Of a DNA stretch of 39,978 nucleotides, positions 472-17,038 are shown in pieces; position 1 is the first letter of the stretch; every line of letters begins with the position of its first letter. Source of the DNA: Phycisphaerales bacterium (GTDB taxonomy: Bacteria; Planctomycetota; Phycisphaerae; Phycisphaerales; SM1A02); contig JAKVBU010000028.1 in NCBI GenBank assembly GCA_022446885.1, forward strand, positions 1 through 39,978, given 5' to 3'. The position numbers and the translations under genes were made by a program. Below the pieces are notes generated by a model that was given only the letters and a program-made list of their open reading frames with translations, searched no databases and was not told where the DNA came from.

Positions 472-3165
472 ATGCGGCAGCAGAGATCACGCTTCGTCAC
501 CGGAGTCATTGCGGCGTCGGCCGCCCTTCTTTCGGCCGGCTTCGCCATGGCCGAAGACGACAACTTCGTCAGTGTCGAGGTTCTTTCAGATGGGCCCTTG
601 GGCACCACCTTGAACTTCGAGTTCGCTCAGCCGGAGGTTCGTCAGATCCGTATCGATGGTGCCCCCTGGGATGTCGTGCGTCTGGGCAGCGAGAGCATCA
701 CGGCCAAGGCAGGCGAGCCTGCGCTGCCCGATGTCTCCCGCTCGGTGAGTATCCCCGGCGATGCGGCCGTGCGTGTTCGCATGATCCGCGGCACCTACCG
801 AGACCTCGAGGGCTTCAACATCGCCCCGAGTAAGGGTGTCATCTACCGAGACACCAACCCCGCCGACGTCCCCTTCCAGTTCGGCGAGGTCTACGCCACA
901 GCTGGTTTCTGGCCCAGTGAATTGGCGACAATGCGTGAGCCCCACATCATTCGCAATGCTCGTGGTGTGGTCGTCACAGTGAATCCACTGCAGTGGGACC
1001 CATCAACGGGCACACTGCGGCTCTGGCAGTCGATGGAAGTGGCGGTCGATGTGATCGGCAAGACCACCAAGAACATCCTGCCGGAGTTCACGCTGACGCA
1101 GGGCAACGCCGCATTTGAGGCGATCCACGCCAATCACTTCGTCAACTGGCCAGCAGAGCCTCGCTACGACGACCTCGATTTCTCAGGTGACATGTTGATC
1201 ATCGCAGCGGATCAGTTCGTGGACAACATGCAGCCCTTGGCCGATTACAAGAACGGCACCGGCCGAAACTGCACGATCGTACCGATCTCAGAGATTGGCA
1301 ACAGTGCCGGAGCCATCGACGGTTATGTGAACAACATGTACATTGGCGGCAATCTCGCCTATGTGCTGCTTGTGGGCGACGCTGCTCATATCGCCGCTCC
1401 CTCCTCTGCCGGGGGTTTGTCCGATCCCCTGTACGCGAAGATCACCGCCGACGACTATCCGGACTTCTTCATCGGTAGATTCTCCGGTGAAACGGATGCC
1501 CACATTGACACACAAGTCCAGAGGGCCATTCAGTTTGAAGAGGACCAGTTGGCATTGAATCCGCTGTATAAGCGAGCAGCGGGTATCGCCTCAAATCAGG
1601 GCCCTGGTGATGACGGCGAGACGGACGATGTCCACGTTGCCAACATCATGAGTCAGCTCGAAGAAGAGTACGGCTATACCTATACAACCGTGATCGCAGA
1701 CCCCTCTGGCTCCGTGGCCGATGGTGTCGCAGCCATCAATAGCGGCCTTGGTGCCATCGCCTACACCGGTCACGGCTCCACAACCTGCTGGGGCAATGGC
1801 GCCCCTCTGTGTAACAGCGATGTCGATGGTCTGACTAACACAGAGATGCTTCCCTGGATCATCTCGGTGGCTTGTGTAAATGGCGAGTACAACGCCGGAA
1901 CCTGTTTTGCCGAGGCATTCACCCGCGCAACTCACAATGGTCAGCCTGCGGGCGCCACCATGATGTATGCGGCAACGATCAATCAGAGCTGGTCTCCGCC
2001 GATGTGCGCTCAGGATGAGACGTTCGATCTATTCGCATCTGAGCATTACACCACTCTCGGTGCCCTGTGCTTCGGTGGTTCGTGCCAGATGATGGATGAA
2101 TACGGTAGTGCCGGCGTCGAAATGTACGACACCTGGCACATCTTCGGTGATCCCTCATTGATCGTCGTCGGGACGGCCGAGCCGCCCACTGGCGTCACAC
2201 TGAGCGGCAATGGTTTTGCCGCCGAAGGCCCCCTTGGCGGTCCCTTCACGCCCAACTCTTGTGAATTGACATTGAAGAATTATGACGATGTTCCCTACGA
2301 CTGGTCCGCTCAGGTCAATGTGCCATGGGCTGATCTCTCGCAGGCCTCGGGCACAGTGCCCGCAACCGGTGAGATCACCGTCACGGTCATGATCAATTCT
2401 CAGGCCACGGGACTGGGCAATGGCTACCACGCCGGAGTTGTCGCCTTTAGTAACGAGGACACCAATGAGGCCATCGGCGACAAGAGCATTTCCATCAACG
2501 TGGGCGTGCCAGTCGAGATCTACAGCTGGAACATGGACCAGAACCCCGGTTGGAGCATGACCGGTGACTGGGACTGGGGACAGCCCACAGGTGGCGGCGG
2601 TGAGTTTGGTAGCCCGGACCCCAGCAGTGGGGCGGATGGGGAAAACGTCTGTGGCGTTAATCTGAATGGCGATTATGACATCAATGACATGGCCGCTATG
2701 ACGCTCACGACGAATCCCATCGACTGCAGCAGTCTGATGGATGTGGAACTGAAGTTCCAGCGCTGGCTCAACAGCGATTACCAGCCCTATGTCACCCAGC
2801 GGTTGGAGATCTCTCCAGATAACGTCAACTGGACGGCAATCTTTGACAATGGTGATGATGAGATCACGGCAACCTCTTGGAGTGAGCAGGTGCATGACAT
2901 CTCGGACATCGCTGACGGCGAGGTTGCGTTACGCGTACGTTGGAGTCACCAGATTACCTCTGGTGGTGCTTGGGCCTATTCTGGCTGGAATCTGGATAAC
3001 GTCCAGATCTGGGGCGTCGATGGAGATTCTGAGCCTTGCGATGGCGACTACTCCGGCGATGGCATGGTCGACACCTTGGACATTCTGGCAGTGCTGGCCA
3101 GCTGGGGTCAGTACAACACCCAGGACATCCTGCTCATTCTGGCCAACTGGGGCAATGAGTGCTGA
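472..3165 (+). CDS. Secreted C25 (gingipain-family) cysteine peptidase with dockerin-like tail
   Basis: This 897-residue exported protein has a signal peptide (about residues 1-27, ending FAMA). A gingipain-type propeptide follows, running to about residue 235. The C25 catalytic domain (about 238-570) begins with DMLIIAADQF. The catalytic pair is visible: His434 in YTGHGS and Cys468 in SVACVNGEY, 34 residues apart, as in gingipains. An immunoglobulin-like domain follows (about 570-680), then a MAM/CUB-like beta-sandwich (about 685-850, with WDWGQP and SGWNLDNVQIW). The last 42 residues (856-897) are a dockerin-like Ca-binding tail bounded by two cysteines. The ATG at 472 is chosen for its AGGAG site 7-8 bases upstream. 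The protein probably hydrolyses proteins outside the cell or on its surface. A terminator follows immediately, so it is transcribed alone. Confidence 0.9.
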   Translation: MRQQRSRFVTGVIAASAALLSAGFAMAEDDNFVSVEVLSDGPLGTTLNFEFAQPEVRQIRIDGAPWDVVRLGSESITAKAGEPALPDVSRSVSIPGDAAVRVRMIRGTYRDLEGFNIAPSKGVIYRDTNPADVPFQFGEVYATAGFWPSELATMREPHIIRNARGVVVTVNPLQWDPSTGTLRLWQSMEVAVDVIGKTTKNILPEFTLTQGNAAFEAIHANHFVNWPAEPRYDDLDFSGDMLIIAADQFVDNMQPLADYKNGTGRNCTIVPISEIGNSAGAIDGYVNNMYIGGNLAYVLLVGDAAHIAAPSSAGGLSDPLYAKITADDYPDFFIGRFSGETDAHIDTQVQRAIQFEEDQLALNPLYKRAAGIASNQGPGDDGETDDVHVANIMSQLEEEYGYTYTTVIADPSGSVADGVAAINSGLGAIAYTGHGSTTCWGNGAPLCNSDVDGLTNTEMLPWIISVACVNGEYNAGTCFAEAFTRATHNGQPAGATMMYAATINQSWSPPMCAQDETFDLFASEHYTTLGALCFGGSCQMMDEYGSAGVEMYDTWHIFGDPSLIVVGTAEPPTGVTLSGNGFAAEGPLGGPFTPNSCELTLKNYDDVPYDWSAQVNVPWADLSQASGTVPATGEITVTVMINSQATGLGNGYHAGVVAFSNEDTNEAIGDKSISINVGVPVEIYSWNMDQNPGWSMTGDWDWGQPTGGGGEFGSPDPSSGADGENVCGVNLNGDYDINDMAAMTLTTNPIDCSSLMDVELKFQRWLNSDYQPYVTQRLEISPDNVNWTAIFDNGDDEITATSWSEQVHDISDIADGEVALRVRWSHQITSGGAWAYSGWNLDNVQIWGVDGDSEPCDGDYSGDGMVDTLDILAVLASWGQYNTQDILLILANWGNEC
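3037..3162 (+). other. Dockerin-like C-terminal domain of the C25 peptidase (codons 856-897)
   Basis: The domain opens with CDGDYSGDGMVDTLDIL, a single EF-hand-like Ca loop with Asp at the usual dockerin positions. It continues with a helix (AVLASWG), a short linker and a second helix (DILLILANWG), and ends in Cys. The second Ca loop of a normal type I dockerin is missing. The same layout ends the protein at 6837-8171. Confidence 0.75.
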
Positions 3166-6836: not shown

Positions 6837-8171
6837 TCAGCAGCCGCTGCCGAAGTTCGCCAGGGTGACGAGGATGTCGTCAACTGTGTACATGGAGCCG
6901 AATCCGGCGATGACTGTGAGGATGTCATCCACGTTGACGGTGCCGTCACCGTTGTAGTCACCGTCACAGGGCTCGTCGCCGCAGTCTTGGTCAAAGCTGT
7001 TGCCGCCGCCATCGGTCCAGGCTCCGCCGATGTTGTTGGGGCTGTTGTTGCAGAAGACGTTGTCAGCGATGGTCGGGTTGCCAGCCGAAATGATGACGTA
7101 GTAGCCGGTGGCGTCGTTATCGCGAATGATGCAGTTTTTGATCATCGGCGTTCCGTTGGTGATCATGGCGCTGCCCGATGAAGCGTGACCGCCGCGAATG
7201 GTGAAGCCGTCAATGGTGGGGCTTCCGCCCATCATCGTGACGACACGGCCCTGTGCCTGCGCATCGATGACGGTGGCTGAGGGATCAGAAGACGCTGCCA
7301 GGAGATCGATGGACCGGCCATTGAAGTCGATCATCTCGTTGTAGGTGCCCGGTGCAACCGTGACCGTGCTGCCTGAGCCGACCTCGTCGAGGGCAGCCTG
7401 AATCGTCGAGAAGTCGCCGGTGGGGCCGACAGTGACATTCGCCGGGGGGGCTTCGCCGTGCTTGTGCTCTGCAGACTGATAGATCATCGCTGGGCCGCTA
7501 GAAGCATTGAGCTGGGCCCAGACAACATAGTTGACGTGCTGGGTGTTGGTCGACTCACCCGACAGGGTGAAGGTGTGGTTGAAGCCGTACGTCTGTCCCG
7601 GTGACAGAGTGAACGTTTGGGTTGGAGCGGACTGGCGCAGGGTGTTGAACTGAATCTCGTTTGACTCGGGCCAGTTTTCCTGATTGTAGACCTGCGTCAC
7701 ATAGAGCTTGATGTTTCTGGTCTGACCGCCGGACTCTACACCGACGGTGATGTCCAGGTTGTATTGGTTGGTTCCAGCCTCTTCACCAATCACGTCAATA
7801 GTGACATCGGTTGTTGAGGAAGCATTGTTAAGCATGCCCTGCAAGGCATTGGCATTGGCGGAGGGAGAGCCATAGGAGCCTACCTGAGACCAGGTGCCAT
7901 TCAGCCAGACCGTGGGATACCCGCTGAGACTGTAGAAGTTGATCAGTTGATCACCTAGGCTGGTGGTGTAACTGTCGCCGCCGTGAATCATCAAACCTGT
8001 TGTGGTTTCTGGATTGTTTTCCAGAACTGTGTGCAGGCCTTCAGCAACGTCTGGGCAGTACCCACACCAGGTAGCGGTGAACTCCTGAAACAAGTTGACC
8101 TTCGGCGCTGCGGTCAGCGCAGACGCACATGCCGTGGCCGCGATGAAAGCGAGGGTTGTTGTTGGACGCAT
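6837..8171 (-). CDS. Secreted Omp28-like thioredoxin/beta-helix fusion with dockerin-like tail
   Basis: The protein is 444 residues from ATG at 8171, chosen because AGGAGAG lies 8 bases upstream; an in-frame earlier start would add 11 residues before the signal peptide. Residues 1-22 are a signal peptide. Residues 23-130 form an Omp28-type thioredoxin-like domain with FTATWCGYCPD (Cys36 and Cys39) and the cis-Pro-like GYPTVW. A beta-sandwich region follows to about 250. Residues 255-395 are a right-handed beta-helix (DFSTIQAALDEVGSG, then TIDGFTIRGG). Residues 402-444 are a dockerin-like tail closed by Cys residues. The CxxC pair suggests redox activity or disulfide handling outside the cell, but that is inference. 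It stands alone, with a hairpin after it and a leader of its own. Confidence 0.82.
   Translation of the reverse strand: MRPTTTLAFIAATACASALTAAPKVNLFQEFTATWCGYCPDVAEGLHTVLENNPETTTGLMIHGGDSYTTSLGDQLINFYSLSGYPTVWLNGTWSQVGSYGSPSANANALQGMLNNASSTTDVTIDVIGEEAGTNQYNLDITVGVESGGQTRNIKLYVTQVYNQENWPESNEIQFNTLRQSAPTQTFTLSPGQTYGFNHTFTLSGESTNTQHVNYVVWAQLNASSGPAMIYQSAEHKHGEAPPANVTVGPTGDFSTIQAALDEVGSGSTVTVAPGTYNEMIDFNGRSIDLLAASSDPSATVIDAQAQGRVVTMMGGSPTIDGFTIRGGHASSGSAMITNGTPMIKNCIIRDNDATGYYVIISAGNPTIADNVFCNNSPNNIGGAWTDGGGNSFDQDCGDEPCDGDYNGDGTVNVDDILTVIAGFGSMYTVDDILVTLANFGSGC
6840..6968 (-). other. Dockerin-like C-terminal domain of the Omp28-like protein (codons 402-444)
   Basis: CDGDYNGDGTVNVDDIL is an EF-hand-like Ca loop with helix. 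It is followed by a short linker and a second helix DILVTLANFG without its own Ca loop, and the domain ends in Cys. It is the second copy of the tail at 3037-3162 and is identical to it in layout. Confidence 0.75.
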
Positions 8172-8246
8172 GTTTGACACTCTCCTGAATATGGCCACTC
8201 GCACGAGTGCAATTGGCGAATCCCCATCCCGGTGGACGTTCGAATG

Positions 8247-16351: not shown

Positions 16352-17038
16352 TCACTGCGAGGGGGTGTCGGCTCTGCGCCAGCGTCGCCATGACTCCGAT
16401 GGAATGCCCAGCAGCGTCCGACGCACTTGCTGCTGCCAGTACATCGGCCCCTGGGCCAAATCCAAAACCTCGGTGGCCACGCCACTGACGCTGGAGAGGC
16501 CCAAGTCAGCCTCGAATGTGCTGTCCAACCGAGCTCGCCGATGCCCCGCATGCTGGCTGTCGGCGCCTCGTTCGATCGTGAGCGTCCAATTGCCCCGCGC
16601 CAGTGGGTGGCCCGCCTCGGAACCGATGCGATGGACTCGCATGTCTCCCGTCGCACGATGCGTGAGGGCCTGAGCCTCGGCGATGGCAATGGGTAACACC
16701 GGAAGTGGTGGCTCGAAGAACACGTGCACGCCCTCGATGAGATCGATTTGCCCTACCTTGGCGATCGAACCGTCGGCCTGCCGCACAAGCTCCAATTGTG
16801 CCCATGGCATTGTCTGAGTCCAGCCTTCCTCAGTGGAGTGAATCTCGACTCGGATCAAGGCTGCGTCACCCTGAGAGTCTTCCATGTTCACGTCGAATCC
16901 GCTGCGCTCGAGGCCCAGCATCATCACAGGCGAACCCACAGCGGGCGGCAGATCGCCTTCGCTGGGGCCAGCAGGCATGGGGGCGGCGCAGCCAAGCACC
17001 GTCAACAGCAAGCCGGACAGCCCTGTGAGTTTGATCAC
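16352..17038 (-). CDS. Lipoprotein of unknown function
   Basis: A 228-residue protein with a lipoprotein signal (hydrophobic residues 4-16, then GC with the lipid-bearing Cys17). The mature part begins with a Pro/Gly-rich linker, and I recognise no domain in it. Segments such as GWTQTMPWAQLELVRQ and ARGNWTLTIERGAD suggest a beta-rich soluble fold at the inner face of the envelope. ATG at 17038 overlaps the stop of the GNAT gene by four bases, so the two are co-translated. It is the last gene of the valS group. Confidence 0.72.
   Translation of the reverse strand: MIKLTGLSGLLLTVLGCAAPMPAGPSEGDLPPAVGSPVMMLGLERSGFDVNMEDSQGDAALIRVEIHSTEEGWTQTMPWAQLELVRQADGSIAKVGQIDLIEGVHVFFEPPLPVLPIAIAEAQALTHRATGDMRVHRIGSEAGHPLARGNWTLTIERGADSQHAGHRRARLDSTFEADLGLSSVSGVATEVLDLAQGPMYWQQQVRRTLLGIPSESWRRWRRADTPSQ

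Follow-up and report, generated by a model that had tools for sequence, protein, structure and literature searches.

Why should two exported proteins of a marine planctomycete that are unrelated to each other share one short C-terminal tail, and what kind of element is this tail? The question is raised by a stretch of 39,978 nucleotides from a Phycisphaerales bacterium (assembly GCA_022446885.1, contig JAKVBU010000028.1), called the window here, which makes up the whole of contig C30 of the host genome (G000; 2.87 Mb, 108 contigs, 97.3% complete). The window encodes a gingipain-like C25 peptidase and an Omp28/thioredoxin-like protein with a beta-helix, and both end in a Cys-terminated tail of 42–43 residues with one calcium loop (Table 1). 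A previous reading of the sequence alone (the sequence-only reading) had described this tail as a truncated, dockerin-like element. On profile homology, the tail is a dockerin from which positions 1–7 of the second calcium loop are missing and in which helix 2 is kept. We consider it probable that it represents a disulfide-clamped, one-calcium dockerin variant, which tags proteins for surface attachment or sorting by way of a partner that cannot be recognised as a cohesin.

Both window tails lie in frame, with Cys as the last residue and the stop codon directly after it, and share 57% identity with each other. In 5,000 shuffles, the BLOSUM62 score averaged −15.4 and never exceeded 28, as compared with 123 for the two tails. 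Judged by this score, the two tails are homologous, and the proposal that two proteins of the window end in the same tail of about 42 residues was borne out in coordinates and in frame. When all six frames of the window were scanned with a regular expression, three matches came up, namely the two tails and one at 16879 without dockerin context. As read from the sequence, each tail closes with an Asp- and Asn-containing helix followed by Cys, with no hydrophobic membrane segment.

The relationship to dockerins was examined with profiles of short tails (59 tails) and two-loop dockerin tails (44 tails), both selected by hand. The two profiles were aligned by hhalign over 42 columns with a probability of 99.5 and an E-value of 9e-23, and the alignment contained a single gap, at the linker and the second calcium loop. 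Positions 1–7 of the second loop were missing in this alignment as well as in both window tails. The same linker/loop-2 gap was found within one gene family: orthologues of the C25 peptidase carry the short tail in seven genomes or records (G000, G018, L201, G147, G153, G075 and G117) and a two-loop dockerin in seven (L204, L205, L207, L209, L170, L174 and L176). We identify the tail with dockerins because of this profile homology and the orthologues bearing either form. The same observations rule out that the tail is a unique, non-dockerin invention. The short tail appears interchangeable with two-loop dockerins in this gene family, and it was retained in C25 orthologues at 46–77% identity. 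The sequence-only reading had named two findings that would count against it, and neither was seen: the tail is not lost from close relatives, whose C25 orthologues keep the short form, and homologous tails do not always carry two calcium loops.

To describe the short form more generally, we parsed 97 short tails from 11 genomes, nine from the host genome and 88 from at least 89 short-looking matches among 151 genomes of the order; one locus with a masked run (L278) was left out. The numbers per genome, each to be read as 'at least', were 25 in G075, 15 in G032, 13 in G147, 12 in G117, nine each in G000 and G084, seven in G018, three in G047, two in G053 and one each in G111 and G022. In loop 1, Asp occupied positions 1 and 12 in all 97 tails (the parser required Asp at 12 and Asp or Asn at 1), position 3 was Asn, Asp, Thr or Ser in 96 and position 5 was Asp, Asn or Ser in all. 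In the second half, 91 of the 97 had Asp at position 12 and 94 had an aromatic residue (Tyr, Phe or Trp) at position 8; a linker of exactly two residues was shared by 93. The single calcium loop of the sequence-only reading is upheld by the missing second-loop positions, and one-loop tails are common (97 parsed in 11 genomes, a set that was chosen for shortness and whose loop count is not independent evidence of a missing loop). In eight of the 97 tails, the reading frame continues for another 169 residues, as far as the available stretch goes, which means that the module can be internal. In relatives, an internal short dockerin can have GACC-type Cys-rich repeats after it (L240, L247, L252, L262, L266, L276, L283 and L284).

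Existing family models detect the short form poorly. PF00404, the type I dockerin family, matched five of the nine short tails of the host genome at E <= 10 (best E, 0.0018). NF041540, the GC-type dockerin family of NCBIfam, gave weak matches to 29 of the 59 short tails (best, 4.3e-4) because loop 2 is missing, and matched all 44 chosen two-loop tails of the host genome at E <= 10 (best, 1.9e-9). The C25 tail of the window stayed below the cut-offs of both models (14.7 vs 22.9 bits for PF00404; 13.7 vs 29 bits for NF041540, covering the first half of the model). In the host genome as a whole, NF041540 had 23 matches at E <= 1e-4 (best, 2.2e-10).

AlphaFold2, given seven aligned tails taken from the window and from named records, modelled the tail of the Omp28 protein with a predicted local distance difference test (pLDDT) score of 94.9 and placed helices at residues 13–21 and 29–37. 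The best Foldseek matches in the PDB were dockerins (2y3n; TM-score 0.78, probability 0.99, E 0.12), none of them at E <= 0.001. VIA-align gave a Z-score of 6.0 and a root-mean-square deviation of 1.7 over 43 residues against a dockerin, and the other rows shown were also dockerins, with Z <= 4.2. The tail is predicted with confidence to form a two-helix mini-domain, with the dockerin as its nearest solved fold. A model of the C25 region (pLDDT 71, four of five models <= 50) was used solely for the two helices of the tail.

The cysteines at the two ends of the tail occur in a coupled manner. Among the two-loop tails of G000, G075 and G032, Cys was present at both ends in 79, at the first only in 2, at the last only in 3 and at neither in 27 (Fisher p = 3e-20); the corresponding numbers for the short tails were 92, 0, 3 and 2 (p = 0.002), although both p-values overstate the certainty, the related sequences not being independent. 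The two short tails without either end Cys are L242 and L257. This pattern suggests a disulfide that closes the ends of the module and is a feature of the whole family rather than a speciality of short tails. The clamp does not set the short tail apart, with Cys at both ends in 61 of 84 two-loop pairs of the host genome. A closing Cys as the very last residue, as described in the sequence-only reading, holds for both window tails and not in general, being found in 22 of the 97 short tails. As a separate observation, the linker between the two repeats contained either no or two cysteines in 100 of 111 two-loop pairs of the same three genomes, which suggests that many of the two-loop tails have an additional disulfide.

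A search of the host genome with the Omp28-protein tail returned eight matches of full length and one more that was slightly shorter, giving at least nine short tails of 42–43 residues. Besides the two window proteins, they are carried by a subtilase, a metallophosphatase, an M12B peptidase, an LVIVD-repeat protein, a trypsin-like protein (below the cut-off) and two proteins without a Pfam match at E <= 0.01. All nine carriers have hydrophobic, signal-peptide-like starts by eye, in agreement with the view that the tail sits on exported proteins. PF00404 had 111 matches in this genome at E <= 1. We combined tail and PF00404 match sites into at least 133 groups, read the ends of their open reading frames (ORFs) and applied a regular expression, which yielded at least 84 two-loop dockerin repeat pairs, with the proviso that one protein may yield more than one pair; 73 of the 84 lie within eight residues of the C-terminus. 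Of 121 distinct closed dockerin ends of ORFs, 23 were single-repeat by regular expression (for instance, C50:112-192, C48:4157-4237 and C28:37350-37427), a few of them with a degenerate first repeat. Many of the single-repeat ends are preceded by Cys-rich GACC repeats.

What occupies the place of the tail in more distant C25 proteins was assessed by scanning the homologue ends at 10 of 24 C25 loci. Eight of the 10 ends, from other phyla or unassigned bacteria, matched TIGR04183, the type A sorting domain of the type IX secretion system (T9SS), over the cut-off. L217 ended in an IPTL-CTERM domain (TIGR04174; 20.9 vs a cut-off of 20.5) and aligned to the query as far as residue 856, immediately ahead of the tail, and L204 ended in a weak GC-type dockerin (16.3 bits vs 29). 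TIGR04183 itself had no match in either window protein at E <= 10. The presence of sorting domains in the C-terminal slot of homologues is positional evidence for a sorting or attachment role of the tail, and not proof. The idea of a sorting or anchoring tag rather than a cellulosome module is supported in part: these homologues lend support to its first half, and the implied contrast with dockerins is not supported, as the host genome has many two-loop pairs with Cys at both ends and orthologues carry either form. The C25 tails of G147, G075 and G117 were nearer to the tails of their own genome (0.53, 0.60 and 0.66, respectively) than to orthologous tails outside the genus (0.31–0.42). This likeness was not seen for G000 and G018 (0.42 and 0.37 vs 0.38–0.42), whose C25 tails show a value of 0.69 to each other.

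With the 59-row tail profile, six of 392 genomes of the phylum had a match at E <= 1e-8, all of them in the same order, although this sample evidently lacks some of the short-tail genomes of the 151-genome set. Matches over 42 or 43 columns were found in G000, G018, G022, G027 and G032, and G013 had only partial ones. Within the order, 89 of 151 genomes matched the tail profile, and NF041540 was over its cut-off in 94 of 151. The tail looks restricted to this lineage, which accords with the lineage-specific part of the earlier proposal. The dedicated sorting enzyme that the sequence-only reading had suggested looking for did not emerge. Exosortase has one copy over the cut-off in the host genome; it occurs in every genome of the order (151 of 151), hence does not track the tail, and is ruled out as such an enzyme. 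SprA_N of the T9SS had no match in the host genome, and none in the control genomes either.

The two helices of the short tail resemble each other in a lineage-specific way. Over 13 positions, helix 1 and helix 2 were 52% identical within the same tail, 50% within the same genome and 34% between genomes. At position 10, the commonest residue (Val, Phe, Ser or Ala) was the same in both halves in all 11 genomes, and at position 14 this was so in nine of 11, counts that include four genomes with just one or two tails. The two positions vary jointly in both halves, with Phe/Phe and Ser/Ser in G032 and Ala/Ala in G053. A block permutation over seven genomes reached the observed matching in 5 of 5,040 arrangements, which is not a clean probability, the genomes being related. 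The two-loop pairs of G032 (n = 13) share the residues of its short tails, with Phe at position 10 in 12 of 13 and Ser at position 14 in 7–8 of 13, and short and two-loop helices of G032 were 0.65/0.59 identical, as compared with 0.26–0.34 across genomes. G075 was intermediate in this likeness; the two-loop pairs of G032 and G075 came from the best 30 loci only. Tail position 10 is presumably equivalent to the recognition position 11 of dockerins. Dockerin positions 11 and 12 are pivotal in cohesin recognition, according to the accessible part of one report (PMC5301203). Lineage matching of this kind is compatible with a co-evolving partner whose binding face is twofold.

According to the reading that we favour, the protein would be exported by means of its N-terminal signal peptide, and its C-terminal 42–43 residues would fold round one bound calcium and be closed by a disulfide from the first to the last Cys. 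The two near-copy helices would then form a pseudo-twofold face recognised by a cell-surface partner, by which unrelated exported proteins (peptidases, a phosphoesterase and beta-helix proteins) would be kept at the cell surface or sorted. Calcium binding, disulfide formation, the existence and nature of the partner and the surface location are parts of this reading that we infer, and attachment or sorting is the function that we infer to be best supported. A more specific version is possible and is put forward tentatively: in Phycisphaerales, short tails may use a compact, disulfide-clamped, one-calcium dockerin code in common with two-loop dockerins and so fasten many unrelated exported proteins to a non-cohesin surface receptor, with which the lineage-specific pattern of the mirrored helices would co-evolve.

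Several observations weigh against an attachment tag with a partner. No partner of the tail was found. The Pfam cohesin, PF00963, had no match in the host genome at E <= 1 (2 of 14 control genomes matched), in line with the sequence-only reading, which saw no cohesin, and it exceeded its cut-off in just 9 of 151 genomes of the order, vs 89 of 151 with the tail. The structural matches are middling, with Foldseek E above 0.1 and Z below 8, and the dockerin claim leans first on sequence homology. The eight T9SS homologues align to the query by the peptidase part only, which leaves the slot common merely as a C-terminus. Short tails of G000 were about as similar to the two-loop tails of G075 (0.394) as to those of their own genome (0.406), and the short tails of G075 were closer to the two-loop tails of G000 (0.448) than were G000's own. 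Shuffling helix 2 within genomes preserved the matching at positions 10, 14 and 17, and position 20 alone lay above the shuffle (0.856 vs 0.798); since the matching survives, the signal belongs to the lineage and not to the single tail. It could also have come from a copied ancestral tail together with core packing.

These points bear on the alternatives to different degrees. The tail might be a structural cap, a calcium- and disulfide-stabilised plug against proteolysis that acts without a partner and was spread by gene-end shuffling. The lack of a Pfam cohesin in the host genome, the confident stand-alone predicted fold, the coupled cysteines and a helix matching that could stem from core packing and descent would all suit it. 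We nevertheless regard a cap as unlikely, given that C25 homologues in other groups end in sorting domains and that position 14, Ser in both short and two-loop tails of G032, is Leu, Ala, Gly or Asn elsewhere, with no obvious core requirement. An ordinary cohesin-dockerin system resembling the planctosome, with a cohesin too divergent for Pfam or encoded in the few per cent of the genome that the assembly lacks, would agree with the cohesin/dockerin pairs proposed in freshwater Nemodlikiaceae (in the accessible part of PMC6461901), with the few genomes of the order that do have a cohesin and with a host genome that is 97% complete and not closed. However, a cohesin match at E <= 0.01 was obtained in 11 of 151 genomes, and these do not include any of the seven with the most short tails, which are 96–97% complete. 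It would also be unusual for a genome to have dozens of dockerins and not a single recognisable cohesin, and we hold this explanation to be quite improbable.

Decay of dockerins, with loop 2 lost through disuse, recalls the first description of half-dockerins, the accessible part of which offers 'partial, hence non-functional' as one of two readings (PMC2930009). It is very hard to reconcile with the uniform two-residue linker, the new conserved aromatic residue, the Asp at position 12 of both halves and the retention of the tail in diverged C25 orthologues, and we give it little credence. A processed or lipidated sorting signal, in which a sortase-like or acyl-transfer enzyme would act on the terminal Cys itself, is suggested by the last residue of both window tails, and we find it scarcely credible: the Cys is last in only 22 of the 97 short tails, L242 and L257 lack both end cysteines, no tail has the first without the last, a pattern suggestive of a disulfide, and exosortase is universal in the order. 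That the terminal Cys is coupled to the first one and varies in position also speaks against a role as a special substrate.

How the one-calcium tag that we favour compares with known systems can be stated for each of them. Cellulosomal type I dockerins (PF00404) have in common with it calcium loop 1, both helices, the internal pseudo-symmetry and the predicted fold; the short tail differs in having one loop instead of two, the Cys clamp and no Pfam cohesin in the genome. GC-type dockerins (NF041540) likewise have Cys near both tail ends, and the short tail differs from them by the missing loop 2. In Ruminococcus flavefaciens FD-1, group 2 comprises one-repeat C-terminal dockerins, five sequences only (PMC2930009), and these short or half-dockerins bind the cohesins of ScaE and ScaH (PMC2930009, PMC5301203). 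As described in the accessible parts of these reports, half-dockerins have the same single C-terminal calcium repeat as both window tails; unlike these, they have known cohesins, and neither an aromatic residue at position 8 nor a Cys clamp is mentioned for them there. The planctosome of Nemodlikiaceae places planctomycete cohesins and dockerins on peptidases, outside cellulose degradation (PMC6461901). The likeness lies in dockerins on planctomycete peptidases, but the planctosome has cohesins, and the accessible part of that report does not mention one-loop dockerins. The T9SS type A and IPTL-CTERM domains occupy the same C-terminal place on C25 homologues and differ in sequence, and the exosortase tags PEP-CTERM and IPTL-CTERM have a C-terminal transmembrane helix, which the short tail lacks by sequence reading. 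In a literature search, the phrase 'GC-type dockerin' had no match, the family itself being curated as NF041540. Within the accessible portions of the dockerin literature searched, we did not meet a precise deletion of loop 2 that spares helix 2, nor the conserved aromatic residue, the Cys clamp or a high copy number of short tails without a recognisable cohesin. The parent dockerin family and cohesin-binding half-dockerins are already known, and the one-calcium, Cys-clamped form is new as a variant.

In many genomes of the order, dozens of dockerins occur without a recognisable cohesin, and the 42-residue form, which seems to serve the same purpose, is the smallest handle on their binding partner. 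It is cheap to synthesise, usable as a pull-down bait and mutable at the mirrored positions. It also suggests that a dockerin may function with one calcium loop if closed by a disulfide, which would be useful for small affinity tags.

Table 1. Positions of the two short-tailed proteins, their tails and a cut neighbouring gene in the window
Feature	Position	Strand	Remarks
C25 (gingipain-like) peptidase	472..3165	+	ORF of 897 amino acids
Short one-calcium-loop dockerin tail of the C25 peptidase	3037..3162	+	42 residues; Cys first and last
Single EF-hand-type calcium loop (positions 1–12), C25 tail	3046..3081	+	From sequence
One linker residue and second half of the C25 tail	3109..3153	+	Aromatic at loop position 8, helix 2; loop positions 1–7 missing
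Omp28/thioredoxin-like protein with beta-helix and short dockerin tail	6837..8204	−	ORF of 455 amino acids, 8204-6837
Short dockerin tail of the Omp28 protein	6840..6968	−	43 residues; AlphaFold2 input
Single calcium loop, Omp28-protein tail	6924..6959	−	From sequence
Beta-helix gene, cut by the contig end	3..608	−	Orthologue L202 ends in a two-loop dockerin

The C25 protein consists of a signal-peptide-like N-terminus (by eye), a C25 propeptide (Propeptide_C25, 88.4 bits), the C25 peptidase (Peptidase_C25, 147.7 bits), a beta-rich C-terminal region and the short tail. Its closest named records are Phycisphaerales metagenome-assembled genomes (MAGs), ALOHA_ZT_37 (77%) and bin113o (72%). The true start codon of the Omp28 protein may be further in, near 8171; in Pfam, this protein matches Beta_helix at the cut-off (25.9 bits), with Omp28 and thioredoxin below theirs. 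In a related MAG (L201:3501-8941), the C25 gene is followed downstream, on the opposite strand, by a probable Omp28/beta-helix orthologue, and both carry short tails; the arrangement is that of the window, the orthology of the second gene being putative. The cut beta-helix gene of the window has a counterpart at the end of contig C28 (L108, G000:C28:52710-53721), where the matching C-terminal part with a two-loop dockerin was found, as judged by orthologue L202. Contigs C28 and C30 probably adjoin inside this gene.

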